Below, one piece after another: positions 4,909-32,160 of a stretch of 64,000 bases of DNA. The notes beneath the pieces were generated by a model. The model had not been told where the DNA came from. It did no database searches and saw only the letters and a program-made list of their open reading frames with translations. The first letter of the stretch is position 1, and each line of letters opens with the position of its first letter. Made by a program: the position numbers and the translations under genes. This DNA comes from Thermosynechococcaceae cyanobacterium MS004 (GTDB lineage Bacteria > Cyanobacteriota > Cyanobacteriia > Thermosynechococcales > Thermosynechococcaceae), in the NCBI GenBank assembly GCA_022402525.1, contig JAKRSB010000081.1, positions 124,001-188,000 on the forward strand, read 5' to 3'.

Positions 4909-4945
4909 GGGTAATACCTCCAGTTCAATTATGCAACGGTGTGGC

Positions 4946-4984
4946 GGCAGACTACAACGCCATCTGCCAGGGCATGTAACTAGA
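4946..4984. repeat. Intergenic hairpin repeat, copy 1
   Basis: This 39-base copy differs from the one at 5274-5312 at two bases. It contains a GGCAGA / TCTGCC inverted pair with an 11-base loop and ends in TAACTAGA. It lies between the genes ending at 4994 and starting at 4908. Confidence 0.7.
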
Positions 4985-4993
4985 TGGGGCGGC

Positions 4994-5242: not shown

Positions 5243-5273
5243 AATATTTCTCCAAATAAGTTTTCAACGTGCT

Positions 5274-5312
5274 GGCAGACTACAACGCCATCTGCCAGGG
5301 CACTTAACTAGA
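5274..5312. repeat. Intergenic hairpin repeat, copy 2
   Basis: Second copy of the 39-base repeat with the GGCAGA / TCTGCC hairpin. It overlaps the stop codon of the gene 5308-5880 and precedes the gene that starts at 5242. Confidence 0.7.
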
Positions 5313-5880
5313 CGGCCAGCAGTGACTGGAGCGTGGCCTTAGACATCCGCGAAGCGTTCTTGATGCCTCGCTCCTTGGCCACAACGCGCAGCTCACGGAC
5401 GCCCATACTGAGCCGAGCTACAGAGGCGGCAGACCGAGCTTCGGCAGCGGTCTGAGGCGCTGGCGTGATCAGGGTCTGGCCAGAGGATAGAGATATAAAG
5501 CGAGAGGCATGGATAGCAATTTCTTTGTTAGCGCGTCTCAGCATCCGTTCACGGTCGGGATGAGAGACAGTGGTTGCAGGTAAATACCCAGCAACTGGCG
5601 AAGCAGGAAGCGCAAGGGGCGCAACCTCGATAATGGGCGGCACTGATGCCTCGTTGTAATCCGCCCAGAACTGAGCCGTCCATTGGCCTGCCTGATAGGT
5701 CAGCCGTGACGCTTCAATAAAGGCAATCACAAATAGGGCGATCGCTTCGACGGCAACACGGATAACGACTGGCGCGATGTGGGACTGGAAGTGCGCATCA
5801 GCGCGATAGACTGCAGACTCGAATCGCTCAAGCGCGGCGGAAAGACTGGAAACTGTAGCGGGAATGGTGTAAGCGTTCAT
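5308..5880 (-). CDS. Membrane protein with C-terminal SAP/Rho-N-like motif
   Basis: A 190-residue protein. A hydrophobic stretch near residues 40-58 (VVIRVAVEAIALFVIAFIEA) suggests one membrane span. The last 32 residues (GVRELRVVAKERGI, ASRMSKATLQSLL) look like a SAP or Rho N-terminal helix-extended-helix motif, which binds nucleic acid in other proteins. The combination is unusual. I start at ATG 5880 because AAAAGGAAC lies just upstream; a longer frame to 5931 lacks such a signal. Function unknown. Confidence 0.55.
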   Translation of the reverse strand: MNAYTIPATVSSLSAALERFESAVYRADAHFQSHIAPVVIRVAVEAIALFVIAFIEASRLTYQAGQWTAQFWADYNEASVPPIIEVAPLALPASPVAGYLPATTVSHPDRERMLRRANKEIAIHASRFISLSSGQTLITPAPQTAAEARSAASVARLSMGVRELRVVAKERGIKNASRMSKATLQSLLAV

Positions 5881-6253
5881 CTGTAGAGTTCCTTTTGAGG
5901 GAGCGCGATGTAGGGGGTGGCTCAACCTCATGAACTTAAGTTATCCCATTCAAACGGGTTTGTCAAGCGCTTTTTTGAGAAATTTTTAGAAAAACATCTC
6001 AATCCATTGCTGCGTAAAGCTTTTAGCCGATAAAAAAGATTTTCAGGTCAGATTTGAATATATATAAAGAAATTTGGCCTGAAATGTAGGTTCCTTCTGA
6101 GGGTTGCGATATGCGGGTGGCGGCAGCGCGCGCTTTTTCTAGATGCGAAATTTTTCAAAAATGCTTTGCCGCCGCCGATTTAAGTGGGGGGGGTAGTAGT
6201 CCATTCCGCTCAAACGGGATAAATTATAAAAAGCCATTTGACTGGGAACAAGA
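5881..6253. other. AT-rich divergent promoter region with duplicated leader
   Basis: This gap separates the minus-strand gene starting at 5880 from the plus-strand GIY-YIG gene. It holds two related segments, 5888-5921 and 6090-6121 (GTTCCTTTTGAGGG and GTTCCTTCTGAGGG at their starts, GGGTGGC at their ends). The first contains the ribosome-binding site of the 5880 gene. The middle is AT-rich (TATATATAAAG near 6058) and suits a promoter. A run of eight Gs lies at 6186-6193. Confidence 0.5.
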
Positions 6254-6876: not shown

Positions 6877-9360
6877 ATGGCTCCTATTGCAATTCTTGCT
6901 CCGATTGGGATTAATTTGGCGGTTGGCCTGGGTGCAGGCTTACTGATCAATCTGCTGTCCCCTGCGCAGAAGGTAGAGGGGCAGCGACTAAATGACCTCA
7001 CGGCTCCTAAGTCTCAGTGGGGGGCGCAGATTCCCCAGGTCTGGGGCAGTATGCGGCTTGCGGGGAATGTGATTTGGGCAGATGACATTCGTGAGGTTGT
7101 CACAAAGAAGCGTCAGGGGGGCAAGGGGCTAGGCCCTAAGGTTCAATCGACGGAGTACAGCTATTTTGCAAGCATGGCGGCGCTGCTGTGCCGAGGCGAA
7201 ATTATAGGAATCCGTCGGCTGTGGCTAAACTCAAAGCTGGTGGTCAACCTGGGGGTAGATGCAGATGCCCAGACGCTGGCCAATAGCCTAAAGTTTATGG
7301 CGGACTATGTGCGGGTGTACCGTGGGACTGAAACCCAAATGCCTGACCCGCTGATTCAAGGGAAGGTGGGGATTGAAGATACCCCTGCCTATCGAGGGCT
7401 GGCTTACTTGGTGCTGGATAATTTGCCGCTGGCGGACTATGGCAATGCGTTCCCGGCGATTTCTGCGGAGGTGGTGCAGGCCGGACAGGTGATGACGAGT
7501 GGCGCGATCGCGCCTGCTGCGGTTCCGTTAGCCTCGGTTATTCAGGAAATCTGCGAGCAGGTAGGGTTTCAGCCTGCTGAACTTGACTTGGATGAGCTAG
7601 ATGAGCAGGTCAAGCACTTTTGGGTAAACACGGCTTCACCAGCAGCGGAGCATCTGTCCGTCCTGCGACGGGCATTTTTCTTTGATGCGATTGATGCGGG
7701 TGGCAAAAAGCTGAGATTTGTGAAACAGCAGCGCCCTGGCTCTGTGCAGACGGTGCCTCTAGATCGGCTGGGATGCTACGAAGCAGGCCAGACACCGCCA
7801 GACTATTTTAATGAGGTGCGGACTCAGGAATTTGAGTTACCCAGGATGGTTTCGGTGTCTTTCCCTGACCCTAACGTGGAATACCGTGAAGGGGTGCAGA
7901 TGTCAGCGGTGAAGGGTGGCACGGCTAGCCAAAATGAAGAAAGCTTAAGTTTGCTGGTGGGGATGAGCGCCAGTCAGGCAAAGACCATTGCAGACAAGCA
8001 GCTTTTCTTGGCATGGGCAAGACGGAGAAAGTTTACGTTTAGCGGATGCCTGCAGCAAGCATTGCTTGAGCCCTCTGATTTAATCTCCGCTCCTTTCCGT
8101 GGGACAGAGAGCCTGTGCTGTTTGACTCAGGTTAGGTTGGGCGCTAACTTTTTGGTTGAGATGCAGGGGCTAGCCTATGATGCCGAGATTTTTGATCATC
8201 AGGCATTTGTAAAGCAGCCTTACTCTGAAGCCTGGACGGCAGTACATAACCAGGCACATCAACTTAAGCATCCACCGATTCTGGAATGGGTGGAGCTGAC
8301 GAATGACGATGGCTCACAGGTGTATGCGCGCGGAACGTCTTACACGCTGGTTGAGGCAACGGGCGTGGTGACGATTCTGAATAGCGGGATTGAAAACAAT
8401 TCTGTGGTGCGCGCCAACTATTATGCTGAAGAGTCTGTCGGCAGTGCAATCATTGGCTCGCCGGGGGGCACCGACTTAAGAATTTTGGACATTCCGCTGA
8501 TTAATGACGAAGACAAGGAATACGGGATTTACCTTGCGGCTACTGGGGGTGAATTTTGGCGCAATGCCGCGCTCTATGCTTCTAGGACTTTTGTGAATGG
8601 TGTTGCGCTTGGGCATGAGCCGATCGCCCCAATCCTGACAAAAAGCATTATTGGGAACTGCCTCACTACCTTAGGAGCGGCTGAGCCTTACACCATTGAT
8701 TATGCCAACACGCTGGATGTAGAGGTGCCCTATGGAGATCTAGAAAGCTTCAGCATAGACCAGGTGCTGACGGGGGCAAATACCGCGCTGGTGGGCGAAG
8801 AAGTTTTACGGTTTTGTAATGCCGAGCTGATTGCACCCGAAACCTATCGGCTGTCAACCTTTGTTCGGGGTGCGCGGGGAACTGAATGGGCGATCGCTTC
8901 CCATCAGCCCAATGAGCAATTTGTGCTCCTGAGCGGCTATCTGAATGAAGTGGAAGGCAAGGTGACGGATATAGGGGGAACGGTAAGCTTTAAAGCGCTA
9001 ACAACTGGGCAAGCCATAGAAGAGGTAGATCCTGTCTCAATGGCGATTGTGCCAGTGCGATTAAGGCCCTATGCTCCAGTTATTCTTTTCGCAGAGCGAG
9101 ACGGGGGAACGGTTAATCTAGCGTGGAGTAGGCGCGATCGCAAAGGTGGGGAAAGTCAGATTTTTGCCATCAAGCCACTGAGCGAAGACGTTGAGCGCTA
9201 CTTGATAGAAGTGTGGAGCGCTGGGCTTTTAGAAAGAGCGGTGACAGTTAATGGGGCTCAGTCTTTGGCTCTTGCAGCGGTTCCTAGCCCTGTGATTATC
9301 AAGATCCATCAAGTCAGCACAAAGGTTGGAAATGGATACAGTGCGGAGGTTACGGTGTGA
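6877..9360 (+). CDS. Tail hub/tip protein, Phage-tail_3 type
   Basis: This 827-residue protein resembles the large tail-tip proteins of siphophages and gene transfer agents (Phage-tail_3). It starts with a glycine-rich hydrophobic segment, then PKSQWGAQIPQVWGSMRLAG and NVIWADDI, which is the typical opening motif. The family forms the central hub of the baseplate and guides the tape measure and DNA at infection. A GTGA overlap couples it to the DUF2793 gene. The sequence before the ATG (GTTTTACCCCAAG) resembles a degenerate copy of the late element found elsewhere in the prophage. Confidence 0.8.
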   Translation: MAPIAILAPIGINLAVGLGAGLLINLLSPAQKVEGQRLNDLTAPKSQWGAQIPQVWGSMRLAGNVIWADDIREVVTKKRQGGKGLGPKVQSTEYSYFASMAALLCRGEIIGIRRLWLNSKLVVNLGVDADAQTLANSLKFMADYVRVYRGTETQMPDPLIQGKVGIEDTPAYRGLAYLVLDNLPLADYGNAFPAISAEVVQAGQVMTSGAIAPAAVPLASVIQEICEQVGFQPAELDLDELDEQVKHFWVNTASPAAEHLSVLRRAFFFDAIDAGGKKLRFVKQQRPGSVQTVPLDRLGCYEAGQTPPDYFNEVRTQEFELPRMVSVSFPDPNVEYREGVQMSAVKGGTASQNEESLSLLVGMSASQAKTIADKQLFLAWARRRKFTFSGCLQQALLEPSDLISAPFRGTESLCCLTQVRLGANFLVEMQGLAYDAEIFDHQAFVKQPYSEAWTAVHNQAHQLKHPPILEWVELTNDDGSQVYARGTSYTLVEATGVVTILNSGIENNSVVRANYYAEESVGSAIIGSPGGTDLRILDIPLINDEDKEYGIYLAATGGEFWRNAALYASRTFVNGVALGHEPIAPILTKSIIGNCLTTLGAAEPYTIDYANTLDVEVPYGDLESFSIDQVLTGANTALVGEEVLRFCNAELIAPETYRLSTFVRGARGTEWAIASHQPNEQFVLLSGYLNEVEGKVTDIGGTVSFKALTTGQAIEEVDPVSMAIVPVRLRPYAPVILFAERDGGTVNLAWSRRDRKGGESQIFAIKPLSEDVERYLIEVWSAGLLERAVTVNGAQSLALAAVPSPVIIKIHQVSTKVGNGYSAEVTV

Positions 9361-13590: not shown

Positions 13591-13602
13591 ATGGGGTCAA
13601 AC
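13591..13602 (-). promoter_or_regulatory. Late element, short copy
   Basis: GTTTGACCCCAT on the minus strand, followed by GATTGG; it lacks the AGTGA end of the full copies. It stands 27 bases before the ATG of the 13564 gene, a spacing similar to the copies before the capsid and tail tube genes. See also 16216, 18916, 21637. Confidence 0.5.
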
Positions 13603-13603
13603 A

Positions 13604-16187: not shown

Positions 16188-16204
16188 CTCACTATGGGGT
16201 CAAA
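16188..16204 (-). promoter_or_regulatory. Late element, minus-strand copy
   Basis: Reverse complement TTTGACCCCATAGTGAG. It forms a perfect 17-base inverted repeat with 16217-16233 across 12 bases and faces the minus-strand gene that starts at 16168. The putative CATAGT part lies 22 bases before the ATG. Confidence 0.65.
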
Positions 16205-16215
16205 TAGCTTGCACT

Positions 16216-16233
16216 GTTTGACCCCATAGTGAG
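16216..16233 (+). promoter_or_regulatory. Late element, plus-strand copy
   Basis: GTTTGACCCCATAGTGAG. It ends four bases before the ATG at 16237. If CATAGT acts as a -10 element, transcription would begin at or next to the ATG, giving a nearly leaderless message. Confidence 0.65.
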
Positions 16234-16782: not shown

Positions 16783-18332
16783 GCAAAAAGAAAGCCGCTA
16801 AACCAGCCCCACGCCCCAAGGCTGCGGGAAAAGCCGGAAAGCCCAAAAGACGACGCGGCTATGATGGGGCGCGGAGCGACAGGCTGACGGCGGATTGGGC
16901 AACCCCAAGTACCCCAGCGGATGGCTTTTCTGGGTCGCTGCAGGTGCTGCGCAATCGGAGCCGAGACCTGGCGCGCAACTTTGATATTGTGAACGGGCTA
17001 TACACGACGATGCCCAACAATATCATTGGCACTGGAATGACCTTTCAGGCGAAGGTGCTGAAGGGGGATGGGCAGAAAGATTTGGATGACAAGCTCAATG
17101 CTCGCATTGAGGAAGAATTCAGATGGTGGTGTGAAGCCCGAAATTGCCACACGGGTGGGCAGCTCTCTTTTGCGGATATTGAATATATTATTTGGCGCTC
17201 GGTGATTGAGGCTGGGGAGATTTTTGTACGGTTTATTCCTCAGGCTTTTGGCGAATCACAAATTCCCTTGGGGCTAGAAATTCTGGAGGCTGAGCAGTTA
17301 GCTGAAGATTATTTTGTGGCGGCCAAGGATGGCCAAAACGCAATTTTCAACGGCATTGAGATGGATCAGTGGGGTCGGCCAGTGGCTTACTGGTTTTGGC
17401 CAAACAACCCTAGTGATTGGCGAATGGTGCGGTCTGCTACGGGGCTCAAGGCATTTCGGGTGCCAGCAAATGAGGTGCTGCACATCTATCGCAGTCTGCG
17501 GCCAAATCAGCACCGAGGGGTGCCTTGGCTGTACTGCTCGCTCATTACGATGCAGCATATCCGCCGATACATTGAGGGCGAGGTGGTGGCTGCGCGCTTG
17601 CAAAATGCGATCGCCGGATTTATCAAGCGACCAGAAAGCGAGTTACCGCCGAATCCAAATGATGAGGATGACTTGAATGATGAGCAGAACCTTGAGGACA
17701 TTGCACCAGGTGCAATTGAGTATCTAAACCCTGGGGAAGATTTTGTAGGGTTTGCGCCGAATCGGCCTAACTCGGATGCGGTGGCATTTATTCAGGAGAT
17801 GCAGCGGGGGCTATCGGCTGGCCAGGGCATCAGCTTTGAGGGAGTGTCTCGGAATTTCTCTCAGACGAATTACAGCAGCGCTCGTGCAGCAAAGCGAGAA
17901 GAGGAGCGCACTTACAAAATCCATCAGGCGGCTTCGATTCAGCAGCTTGAGACGCGGGTATACAAAAAATGGCTGGATTTCGCGGTGCTGTCTGGGGTTG
18001 TCAGTATTCCGAAGTATGAGCTGCGGAAGCGATTTTATCAGCGGCACATCTGGCGACCTCAGGGATGGGATTGGGTTGATCCGGAGAAGGATATCAAGGC
18101 GTCTATTCTGGCGCTGAGGGCTGGGCTGACTTCTTACTCTGATGTGTTGGGAGACCGGGGGCAGGATGTAGAAGAAGTCTGGGAAATGCTGGCCCATGAA
18201 ACGGCGCTGGCAGAAAAGCTGAATATTACGCTGGATAATTCGCTGTCTGGGCCAGGGCAAAGCCCAGACGCACCAGCGGCAGAAAAGAAGCGGTTGGTTT
18301 TGCCAGGGACTAAAGAATGGAGGGCTGGGTGA
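16779..18332 (+). CDS. Lambda-family portal protein
   Basis: A 517-residue portal of the lambda gpB type. A basic N-terminal tail (KKKAAKPAPRPKAAGKAGK) is followed by the typical core: RSRDLARNFDIVNGLYTTMP, WRSVIEAGEIFVRF, LEILEAEQLAEDYF, DQWGRPVAYWFW, and LHIYRSLRPNQHRGVPWLYC, ending with QTNYSSARAAKREEERTY. Portals form the dodecameric ring through which DNA enters and leaves the capsid. The ATG overlaps the gpW-like stop (ATGA), and the TGA overlaps the ATG of the protease. Confidence 0.9.
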   Translation: MSKKKAAKPAPRPKAAGKAGKPKRRRGYDGARSDRLTADWATPSTPADGFSGSLQVLRNRSRDLARNFDIVNGLYTTMPNNIIGTGMTFQAKVLKGDGQKDLDDKLNARIEEEFRWWCEARNCHTGGQLSFADIEYIIWRSVIEAGEIFVRFIPQAFGESQIPLGLEILEAEQLAEDYFVAAKDGQNAIFNGIEMDQWGRPVAYWFWPNNPSDWRMVRSATGLKAFRVPANEVLHIYRSLRPNQHRGVPWLYCSLITMQHIRRYIEGEVVAARLQNAIAGFIKRPESELPPNPNDEDDLNDEQNLEDIAPGAIEYLNPGEDFVGFAPNRPNSDAVAFIQEMQRGLSAGQGISFEGVSRNFSQTNYSSARAAKREEERTYKIHQAASIQQLETRVYKKWLDFAVLSGVVSIPKYELRKRFYQRHIWRPQGWDWVDPEKDIKASILALRAGLTSYSDVLGDRGQDVEEVWEMLAHETALAEKLNITLDNSLSGPGQSPDAPAAEKKRLVLPGTKEWRAG

Positions 18333-20302
18333 TGGAAGAACGGCTGAAGCAGCAGTTAAAGCAGGAAATTACGGGCGCTAGTTTTGTCCGAATGCAGGGG
18401 CTTTCTCTGCGGATGGAGGATGAGGATAAGGATGAGCTGACGTTTTCGTTTAGCTCGGAGCTGCCCTGCGAGCGCTGGTGGGGAACTGAGGTGCTCCTGC
18501 ACACCGAGGAAGCCGCTGACCTGTCACGGCTCAACGATGGTGGGCAGTGGTTGTTTAACCACAACCGAGACTTCTATATTGGGGTGTGCCGGAAAGCGTG
18601 GATTGATGCAACAGATAAACGGGCTTATGTGACCACAAAATGGTCTAACGCTGACCACGTTAAGCCAATCCGTCAAGACGTCAAAGACGGCATTCTAAAG
18701 AACGTCAGTTTTGCTTACGACATTGGCGATTGGATTCCGGCTGGAGAAGACGGCATTATCGTGACGCGATGGCCAGCGTTTGAAGTTTCCATCGTTACGG
18801 TTCCGGCTGACCCAACGGTGGGGATAGGCCGCGCTCAAGATGGCGATAGGCCGCTGATTTGGGGCGTGGAGCCGCCTATGGGGCGAGAAAAGCCTAAAGA
18901 GCAGACCCCTAGATCGTTTGACCCCATAGTGATTAGGGAACGTAGGGAGAACGTAGGCATGGAACCGGAAGAAATTCTACAGCAGGAGCGCGATCGCGTT
19001 GCACAGATCCGCGCAATTGGGGCTGAGCACAATTGTCCTGAGCTGGTGCAAAAGTTTGAGCTGGGCGGGTCTGTTGAAGAATTTCGGGCGGCGGTGCTGA
19101 ATGAGATGAAGGAGCGCGCAAATACTGCTCTTTCGCGCACTACTCCGGTGCTTGGCCTAAGCAAGAAAGAATCTGAGCGCTACTCTGTGCTGCGAGCGAT
19201 GCTAGCGGCGGCAACAGGGGACTGGTCAAAGGCTGGGCTTGAAAAGGAATGTCACACGGCGCTGGAGAACGTGCGAGGGAAAGAGGCAGGGGGGCAGCAT
19301 AGCTTCTACATGCCGCATTTTGACCTGACGATAGATAGCACCAAAGCACAACAGCAGCGCAGCGCGCTAGGGCTTCAGGAGCGCACGACTTACCAAGTGG
19401 GCACCTCCAACGTGGGCGGAGTCACGGTTGAAACCAGCATCTACCCTGAAATGATTGACTACCTGCGGAATGTGCCGCTGGTGATGCAGTTTGGGGCGCG
19501 GATGTGGACGGGGCTTGAAGGCAATCTTGATGTGTTGCGTCAGCTTACGTTTACGAATGTGGGCTGGATTGGGGAAGATGAAAGCCTGCCTGAAGGAAAT
19601 GCAACCTTTGGGAGTTTTCAAATCCGCCCCAGAGATGTGGGGGCATGGAGCCGCGTGACTCGGCGGATGTTGCAACAGTCTAGTATTGACATTGAAATGT
19701 TTGTCCGCGAGGAATTGATCCTGGGCATTGCCTTGGAGCTAGACCGGGTGGTGATCCATGGATCAGGAACCGGAAACGAACCTCGTGGGATTTTGAATAC
19801 TCCTGGAATTGGCTCTGTGGCACTGGGCACCAATGGCGGTGTGCCAACGTGGGCATCAATCGTAGACCTGGAAACTCAGGTGGCTACACAAAATGCCTTG
19901 ATGAGCAATGTCGCCTACATGACCACGCCAAAGGCGCGAGGCAAGCTCAAGACTACGCTGAAGGCGTCTGCTGCGGGGTCTGACTTTATCTGGGCGGATG
20001 CTGGTATTATGACCCCAAGCGGGAACCTGGGGACGCTGAATGGGTACCTGGCCGGAGCGACCAATCAGGTGCGCTCTGACCTGACCAAAGGGACATCAGG
20101 AGCGACACTAAGTGCAATGGTGTTCGGCAACTGGCGCGAGGTGATTACTGCGTTTTGGGATGGTTTGAAGGTTGATATGAACCCCTATGCAGATGCAGAC
20201 TTCCTGCGAGACGCCATGAAGATTAGGTGTATTCAGACGAGCGATGTCCAGGTTGGCAGACCTATTGCCTTTGCTTGCACTACGGACATGATTACGGCTT
20301 AG
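18332..20302 (+). CDS. Prohead protease fused to HK97-fold major capsid protein
   Basis: The 656-residue protein combines two functions. Residues about 15-190 are an S78-like prohead protease, with a catalytic His in FNHNRDFYIG and Ser in KNVSFAYDIG. Residues from about 210 are the capsid protein: a helical scaffold/delta region, then an HK97 fold with WTGLEGNLDVLRQLTFTN, RPRDVGAWSRVTRRMLQQSS, IHGSGTGNEPRGILNTPG. Between them lie a full late element (18916) and an in-frame ATG at 18959 with GGGAGA before it. Capsid alone may be made from 18959-20302. I start at ATG 18332 because GGAGG precedes it. Confidence 0.85.
   Translation: MEERLKQQLKQEITGASFVRMQGLSLRMEDEDKDELTFSFSSELPCERWWGTEVLLHTEEAADLSRLNDGGQWLFNHNRDFYIGVCRKAWIDATDKRAYVTTKWSNADHVKPIRQDVKDGILKNVSFAYDIGDWIPAGEDGIIVTRWPAFEVSIVTVPADPTVGIGRAQDGDRPLIWGVEPPMGREKPKEQTPRSFDPIVIRERRENVGMEPEEILQQERDRVAQIRAIGAEHNCPELVQKFELGGSVEEFRAAVLNEMKERANTALSRTTPVLGLSKKESERYSVLRAMLAAATGDWSKAGLEKECHTALENVRGKEAGGQHSFYMPHFDLTIDSTKAQQQRSALGLQERTTYQVGTSNVGGVTVETSIYPEMIDYLRNVPLVMQFGARMWTGLEGNLDVLRQLTFTNVGWIGEDESLPEGNATFGSFQIRPRDVGAWSRVTRRMLQQSSIDIEMFVREELILGIALELDRVVIHGSGTGNEPRGILNTPGIGSVALGTNGGVPTWASIVDLETQVATQNALMSNVAYMTTPKARGKLKTTLKASAAGSDFIWADAGIMTPSGNLGTLNGYLAGATNQVRSDLTKGTSGATLSAMVFGNWREVITAFWDGLKVDMNPYADADFLRDAMKIRCIQTSDVQVGRPIAFACTTDMITA
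18916..18933 (+). promoter_or_regulatory. Late element inside the protease-capsid gene
   Basis: GTTTGACCCCATAGTGAT at the junction of the protease and capsid parts. It lies 25 bases before the in-frame ATG at 18959, which has GGGAGAAC upstream. It is in the open frame, encoding SFDPIVI, yet conserved in DNA with the intergenic copies, which argues for a DNA or RNA role. Confidence 0.7.
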
Positions 20303-21636: not shown

Positions 21637-21654
21637 GTTTGACCCCATAGTGAT
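21637..21654 (+). promoter_or_regulatory. Late element before the tail tube gene
   Basis: GTTTGACCCCATAGTGAT, identical to the copy at 18916. It lies in the 51-base gap between the terminator-like gene and the tail tube gene, 21 bases before the ATG at 21676, with GGGAG as ribosome-binding site between them. Confidence 0.7.
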
Positions 21655-31456: not shown

Positions 31457-31886
31457 CCGCTAACTCATCAGTAGCCTCGCAAATTGCCTCATATAACAGC
31501 TTCTGACATTGCCGTGGGTCTGTAACGCTGGACAAGTCCACAGCTAATCTTGGGGGGATGGACAATAGGCGCGATCGGCAAACTCCAATAGCCTGCCCCC
31601 AGACCTGTAAAACTTGGTCAACTGCAACCAGCTCGCCTGCCTTTTCGGCAATCTCTAGCTCTAGCTTATCGGCCTGGGCTTGCGTGAGGCGGATTTTCTC
31701 TGCGTACAGCTCATCTTCAAAGGCGACTTGCTTTTTTGGGGTGGGCTTGTCCCGCAAGAATTTAATGATTGCCCTGACAATTTCAGAGATATCCTGACTT
31801 TCTTGGATAACGCCCTGCTTTTGCCATTCCCGAATAGTGCGCTCTGGAACCCCTGTGAATTTTGAAATTTCAGGAGACTTAAACAT
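31434..31886 (-). CDS. Terminase small subunit, Nu1-like
   Basis: A 150-residue DNA-recognition subunit. It begins with a winged HTH of the MerR/Nu1 type: PEISKFTGVPERTIREWQKQ. A helical coiled-coil middle (EKIRLTQAQADKLELEIAEK) follows, as in Nu1. It selects packaging sites and recruits the large subunit. It overlaps TerL by 23 bases and the preceding gene by eight. Confidence 0.8.
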   Translation of the reverse strand: MFKSPEISKFTGVPERTIREWQKQGVIQESQDISEIVRAIIKFLRDKPTPKKQVAFEDELYAEKIRLTQAQADKLELEIAEKAGELVAVDQVLQVWGQAIGVCRSRLLSIPPRLAVDLSSVTDPRQCQKLLYEAICEATDELADGKLFTR

Positions 31887-32160
31887 AGTCTGATAGGTCT
31901 ACGCCGTACAGCCCTCTTCTCCGGACGACGCGAAAAAGGGTTGCTGTGGATGCATTAAACCGCCGAGAGAGTTTGCAGTAGCTCCACCCTTGGGCTTTGA
32001 GTTGGCGGATGCTGTCTGCTTCTGAGGGGGGAAATCTCATGACCTTTAGGTTATGAGAATTAATCCCTCGGCTCCGCGCTTTGTGGCGCTTTTGAGTTGC
32101 AGCAGAACATTTGGGCAGCCGGTGACTTGCATCAGGGGGACTAACCGTATACCAGTTCAT
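31879..32160 (-). CDS. Small basic HTH protein
   Basis: The 93-residue product is basic and has a resolvase-type helix-turn-helix in its second half (SEADSIRQLKAQGWSYCKLS then RRFNASTATLFRVV). Cysteines occur in the middle. It lies between the holin-like gene and TerS and overlaps TerS by eight bases; its role may be to control packaging or late transcription. AGGAAG stands before the ATG. Confidence 0.6.
   Translation of the reverse strand: MNWYTVSPPDASHRLPKCSAATQKRHKARSRGINSHNLKVMRFPPSEADSIRQLKAQGWSYCKLSRRFNASTATLFRVVRRRGLYGVDLSDYV

Follow-up and report, generated by a model that had tools for sequence, protein, structure and literature searches.

In a 64,000-nt stretch of the genome of Thermosynechococcaceae cyanobacterium MS004 (the window; contig JAKRSB010000081.1), a prophage carries a prohead protease and a capsid protein in one open frame. 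The frame extends over 18317–20302 (661 aa at its longest extent). The better start is ATG 18332, which has GGAGGG upstream and overlaps the portal stop codon as TGATG. Pfam searches identified Peptidase_S78 at residues 77–167 (E=1e-4) and Phage_capsid at residues 367–654 (E=2e-38), and PHROG 617 (phrog_617, "major head protein") covered residues 32–656 (E=3.5e-121); these matches bear out the original prediction that a single frame encodes an S78-type prohead protease and an HK97 capsid protein. The S78 and HK97 domains thus lie in a single ORF, as in the prohead protease–capsid fusions of phrog_617. The NCBIfam model NF045541 ("prohead protease/major capsid protein fusion") matched residues 35–275 only, at 125.8 bits and below its curated cut-off of 525 bits. 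H82 and S131 of the protease core are invariant in an alignment of 40–43 relatives. The protease–capsid fusion as such is an already known type, and has also been reported in thaumarchaeal proviruses (PMC6563490).

Table 1 Features of the protease–capsid locus and of the late element in the window.
Feature	Position	Strand	Basis
Protease–capsid ORF (S78 protease, linker, delta scaffold domain, HK97 capsid)	18332..20302	+	Pfam, PHROG, NCBIfam; AlphaFold model
S78 protease core (residues 77–172)	18545..18832	+	profile match, alignment, AlphaFold model
Disordered linker (residues 174–214), holding the junction element and the internal ribosome-binding site	18836..18958	+	pLDDT <50 for residues 174–213
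Junction copy of late element, (TCG)TTTGACCCCATAGTGA	18914..18932 (16-nt core 18917–18932)	+	exact repeat search
Predicted internal transcription start, ± 2–3 nt	18937	+	leaderless spacing class (element end + 5)
Shine-Dalgarno GGGAG, 9 nt 5' of internal ATG	18945..18949	+	duplex energy -7.1
Putative nested capsid gene (Met215 to end, 447 aa: delta domain and HK97 fold)	18959..20302	+	family comparison, AlphaFold model
Late element copy, 4 nt 5' of ATG 16237 (head–tail joining gene, then portal)	16217..16232	+	
Late element copy, divergent, 5' of leftward tail operon (16192 to 14596)	16189..16204	-	
Late element copy, 22 nt 5' of ATG 21676 (major tail protein)	21638..21653	+	
Partial element copy TGTTTGACCCCAT before leftward gene 13564–12602	13591..13603	-	
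93-aa helix-turn-helix protein adjoining terS, candidate factor recognizing the element	31879..32160	-	

Several other features of the window were recorded. An 827-aa tail protein (6877–9357) contains a stretch (451–529) that matches phrog_807, a major tail protein family with an Ig-like domain. A 47-nt direct repeat (4941–4987 and 5269–5315; 89% identical, 328 nt apart) lies around small leftward ORFs. The protein encoded at 5308–5931 (-) has a Rho_N domain, and its N-terminus MRLSHPLHRAPSKG (51% over 43 aa) is shared with an otherwise different protein at L017:435–956 (+), each protein coming from a different prophage of the host genus.

AlphaFold gave the 661-aa product (mean pLDDT 77) a confident protease domain (about residues 40–168), a disordered linker (174–213), delta-domain helices from residue 217 (the first being 217–237), a further disordered stretch (352–384) and the HK97 fold. 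Met215, encoded by ATG 18959, was placed where the disordered linker joins the first delta (scaffold) helix. This ATG is in frame with the fused ORF and has GGGAG about 9 nt upstream, as had been pointed out from the in-frame ATG and the GGGAGA before it. Structure comparison indicated that the predicted fold matches the R4C and HK97 capsids, including HK97 prohead chains. The solved mature capsid chain of the relative R4C starts at profile position 353, after the delta domain, so the N-terminal part is absent from mature virions irrespective of the start used, and both precursors (the fusion and the capsid alone) should be trimmed to a common N-terminus after the delta domain. PMC10276861 gives 415 copies of the R4C capsid protein, and a text search of it returned no mention of a protease.

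Relatives of the fused ORF were collected from viral contigs (80), genome contigs (80), several whole-genome loci and isolated phages, and the contigs were searched with an alignment. The peptide pattern used for retrieval lies in the protease domain and matches were ranked by full-length match, so the number of phages with split protease and capsid genes is not estimable from this collection. One apparent naturally split protease/capsid pair (L023) is most simply a frameshifted copy. Around the fused-protease prophage region of another relative (L026), a palindromic 26-mer, CAAATCCGCAACCGTTGCGGATTTGG, occurs in four copies (positions 661, 6112, 9213 and 14350).

Two non-redundant sets of fused ORFs, a first of 46 representatives (<75% identity) and a second, independent one of 69, were used for comparison of the linker. 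An in-frame linker ATG was present in 112 of the 115 relatives (43/46 and 69/69, respectively). In the first set, a Shine-Dalgarno sequence preceded 28 of 56 linker ATGs (50%) vs 26 of 572 other in-frame ATGs (odds ratio 21, p=1e-18), and in the second it preceded 56 of 89 (63%) vs 43 of 800 other internal ATGs (p=3e-38), the background rate at other internal ATGs being about 5%. The linker signal exceeded synonymous-codon randomization (p=3e-5, first set), whereas control ATGs deviated with the opposite sign, that is, toward avoidance. Eight of nine isolated phages had a Shine-Dalgarno sequence at the linker start (e.g., R4C, cGGAGGacgcaATG); S-LBS1 and S-CBS1/3 keep the linker ATG without one. 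The family therefore has what is expected of a nested gene, a conserved internal in-frame start with a ribosome-binding site at a domain boundary. These comparisons suggest that the nested capsid start is genuine and widespread, and its family-wide occurrence is the strongest part of the case. The database records and family models examined list a single product and annotate neither the nested start nor the junction element, and no description of a nested capsid start was found in the open-access literature searched.

These data bear directly on the possibility that only the full-length fusion is made, with the protease acting in cis or trans in an all-fusion procapsid and being cut off together with the delta domain, the ATG and the element being incidental. 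Such a scheme would agree with the single product annotated in all databases examined, with the thaumarchaeal fusions reported in PMC6563490 and with a mature R4C chain from which everything N-terminal has been removed. It leaves unexplained, however, both the tenfold Shine-Dalgarno enrichment at linker ATGs beyond the amino-acid sequence and the repeated late elements at the junction in unrelated lineages described below, and we consider it unlikely.

The original prediction had also placed a full late element at the protease–capsid junction, and exact copies were indeed found there and before the head, tail and major tail protein genes. The 16-nt element TTTGACCCCATAGTGA has four exact copies in the window (Table 1), and a search of the whole 4.93-Mb genome with up to one mismatch returned the same four only, with zero matches for a reversed-pattern control. 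None of 100 window shuffles contained four matches, even at three mismatches. The recurrence is well beyond chance. As in a set of late promoters, the oriented element stands upstream of several late transcription units. It is without a -35 box and has a weak -10 likeness, and no sigma-70-type promoter (TTGACA - 17 - TATAAT) overlaps the junction copy. The reverse complement, TCACTATGGGG, resembles the T7 promoter core. Its orientation is opposite to that of the genes, however, and the same-genus element described below does not preserve the resemblance, so a T7-type promoter was rejected. Between the leftward tail and rightward head operons, the divergent pair at 16189–16232 makes up a perfect inverted repeat (16-nt arms, 12-nt spacer).

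No exact copy of the element was found in viral contigs. Among 388 genomes of the class searched for a degenerate form, several matches occurred only in two prophages of the same genus; the other three matches were single and attributable to chance, about 3.6 being expected by estimate. The second prophage (L019/G200, contig G200:C257, GenBank JAGVDA010000081.1) shares the host genus and encodes a fused ORF that is 39% identical. Its own repeat, GTATCAGGCCATGCT, occurs in seven copies on a single strand, one of them with a mismatch: before the portal ORF, the fused ORF, the major tail protein and the tape measure, at the junction, and at two more sites among the tail genes. These copies are limited to late genes, with none in the first 11 kb of early genes. 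The window and G200 elements align without gaps as CTGTwTsAssCCATrsTGA, and at the place homologous to ATG 18959 the G200 junction has a GTG start with GAGGG upstream. The position of the element is kept while its sequence drifts, which makes coding constraint a hard explanation; an amino-acid constraint was rejected, since the encoded residues differ (FDPIV vs YQAML) and the other copies are non-coding. The G200 copy at 32028, after the tape measure, precedes a terminator-like hairpin and not a start codon; there (L028, G200:C257:32028–32115) the element is followed by a strong hairpin and a T-rich stretch, as if promoter and terminator overlapped. A motif search upstream of G195 genes performed no better than shuffles.

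Copies other than those at the junction are located at most 30 nt 5' of a gene start in three of three cases in the window (p about 3e-6) and in five of six in G200 (p about 7e-9). Taking both prophages together, the distance from element end to start codon was either exactly 4 nt (four copies) or 20–27 nt (six copies), with nothing between; in tests devised after seeing the data, a uniform model gave P of about 0.003 for four gaps of the same length and 0.01 for the lack of intermediate distances. The 4-nt copies leave no room for a Shine-Dalgarno sequence, whereas most of the 20–27-nt copies have one. Two such classes are expected if leaderless and Shine-Dalgarno mRNAs, respectively, arise from one fixed start point. 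If CATrsT is the -10 hexamer, the ATG of the 4-nt group would be the transcription start itself, and the same leaderless reading predicts a junction transcription start at 18937 ± 3.

Junction repeats were not confined to the host genus. Among 88 loci of at least 12 kb, the junction repeat of 14 surpassed 95% of the control windows (4.4 expected, p=1e-4); since control windows hit the other copies of the element, the test is conservative. Most other relatives among these 88 had no junction repeat exceeding chance, so the promoter part of the arrangement is either restricted to certain lineages or too degenerate to be recognized. Thirteen contractile-tail prophages, from Alpha-, Beta- and Gammaproteobacteria, repeat the junction word elsewhere on the same strand, with further copies preceding head–tail joining (phrog_5774), baseplate wedge (phrog_43) or tail sheath (phrog_23) genes, assignments that were profile-checked in L206, L199 and L219 only and otherwise follow from position and N-terminal likeness. 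The element sequences vary by lineage, and the internal ATG is typically 60–92 nt downstream. A -10-like (g/a)ATACT is located 3' of the element in several of these prophages. Together with the diverged but positionally matching element of the same-genus prophage, these unrelated proteobacterial elements lend weight to the earlier suggestion that the junction element is promoter-like, and, on sequence grounds, there is good support for an internal promoter at the junction in this phage and in some members of the family.

Close to terS, each of the two cyanobacterial prophages has a gene for a small helix-turn-helix protein, and the two proteins are related. Besides itself, the window protein had one significant match among 13,054 frames, namely the G200 protein. 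Their similarity to phrog_836 (late activator) is weak (E=4e-6 for the G200 protein and 0.29 for the window protein), and no sigma factor or RNA polymerase was identified among the window proteins scanned. We tentatively propose that the helix-turn-helix protein near terS is the late activator. At 1313–2285, the window also has a divergent regulatory pair, with a Ner-like winged helix-turn-helix protein (HTH_35, phrog_769) on the minus strand and an S24/CI-like repressor on the plus strand.

Nested translation could also be real with the element serving as an RNA-level signal, for example by enhancing translation or by binding a phage RNA-binding protein in the 5' part of late genes, as the copies just 5' of start codons in sense orientation might suggest. 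A fixed transcription start is, however, a better fit to the two discrete distances (4 or 20–27 nt), and recognition at the DNA level would agree with the divergent pair at 16189/16217 and with the candidate DNA-binding protein close to terS; the proteobacterial spacing of 60–92 nt and the -10-like sequences likewise speak against an RNA signal, which we rate as slightly less probable even than production of the fusion alone. Mycobacteriophage L5 stoperators are short, asymmetric, repeated, transcription-oriented sites near gene boundaries, and the present elements share these features, but their restriction to late genes in G200 (none in the first 11 kb), their copy number of merely 4–7 and their clustered spacing to start codons make it very improbable that they are repressor sites (operators or L5-type stoperators) silencing late genes in the prophage.

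It is thus quite likely, judging from the sequence comparisons, that the locus consists of two nested in-frame genes in which the capsid has its own start and a phage-specific late promoter. Translation from ATG 18332 would yield the full-length protease–capsid fusion, which may co-assemble as a minority subunit and so carry the protease into the procapsid. ATG 18959, served by GGGAG, would yield a complete HK97-type capsid protein with its delta scaffold and shell domain. The 16-nt element would act as the late promoter, with a transcript starting near 18937, and this promoter type would be common to the head–tail-joining/portal operon, the tail operon and the major tail protein gene, with the helix-turn-helix protein as its tentative activator. 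Much capsid and little protease could be made from one gene in this way; the protein ratio and the consequences for assembly are what we infer from the arrangement. Of the original proposal that a low level of fusion and a high level of capsid would settle the stoichiometry without a separate scaffold gene, the internal start is supported across the family by the sequence comparisons, but a scaffold gene is not the issue: HK97-type phages need none because their capsid protein includes the delta domain, and the ratio concerned is that of protease to capsid.

The proposed arrangement is analogous to known systems in part. In herpesvirus UL26/UL26.5, an N-terminal maturation protease is fused to an abundant assembly protein, and a promoter inside the ORF provides the C-terminal part in excess. 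The locus would resemble it in the fusion of a protease to an assembly protein and in the proposed internal promoter for the C-terminal part; the nested UL26.5 product, however, is a scaffold, whereas here it would be the capsid protein with the delta domain as scaffold, and homology of the arrangement is not implied. Phage lambda gpC/Nu3 has an in-frame internal start within the protease ORF for an assembly partner, a likeness reflected in the annotation of PT1 as "protease C/Nu3", but lambda nests the scaffold only and its capsid gene E is separate. HK97 gp4/gp5 likewise has an S78 protease followed by a capsid protein with a delta domain, and the predicted fold matches its prohead chains, but the two are separate genes. 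The phrog_617/NF045541 fusions (VP882, S-LBS1, R4C, FoX1 and others) have the fused ORF, gene order and linker ATG in common with the window; in contrast, their records list a single product, with the internal start and junction element unannotated.

Beyond this prophage, we lean toward the view that the "protease–capsid fusions" of a very large group of tailed phages are nested pairs in which the capsid has its own internal start and, in several lineages, is also transcribed from a lineage-specific late promoter within the ORF; the fusion would then be the less abundant product and serve to bring the protease into the shell. If so, the widespread annotation of one fused protein would stand for two products with a set ratio, which would explain how few proteases are loaded among about 415 capsid subunits. 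Herpesviruses, which share the capsid fold, have a nested protease–scaffold gene to which the arrangement would be the phage equivalent, and the elements provide candidate late-promoter sequences for cyanobacterial and proteobacterial prophages, derived from sequence comparison.
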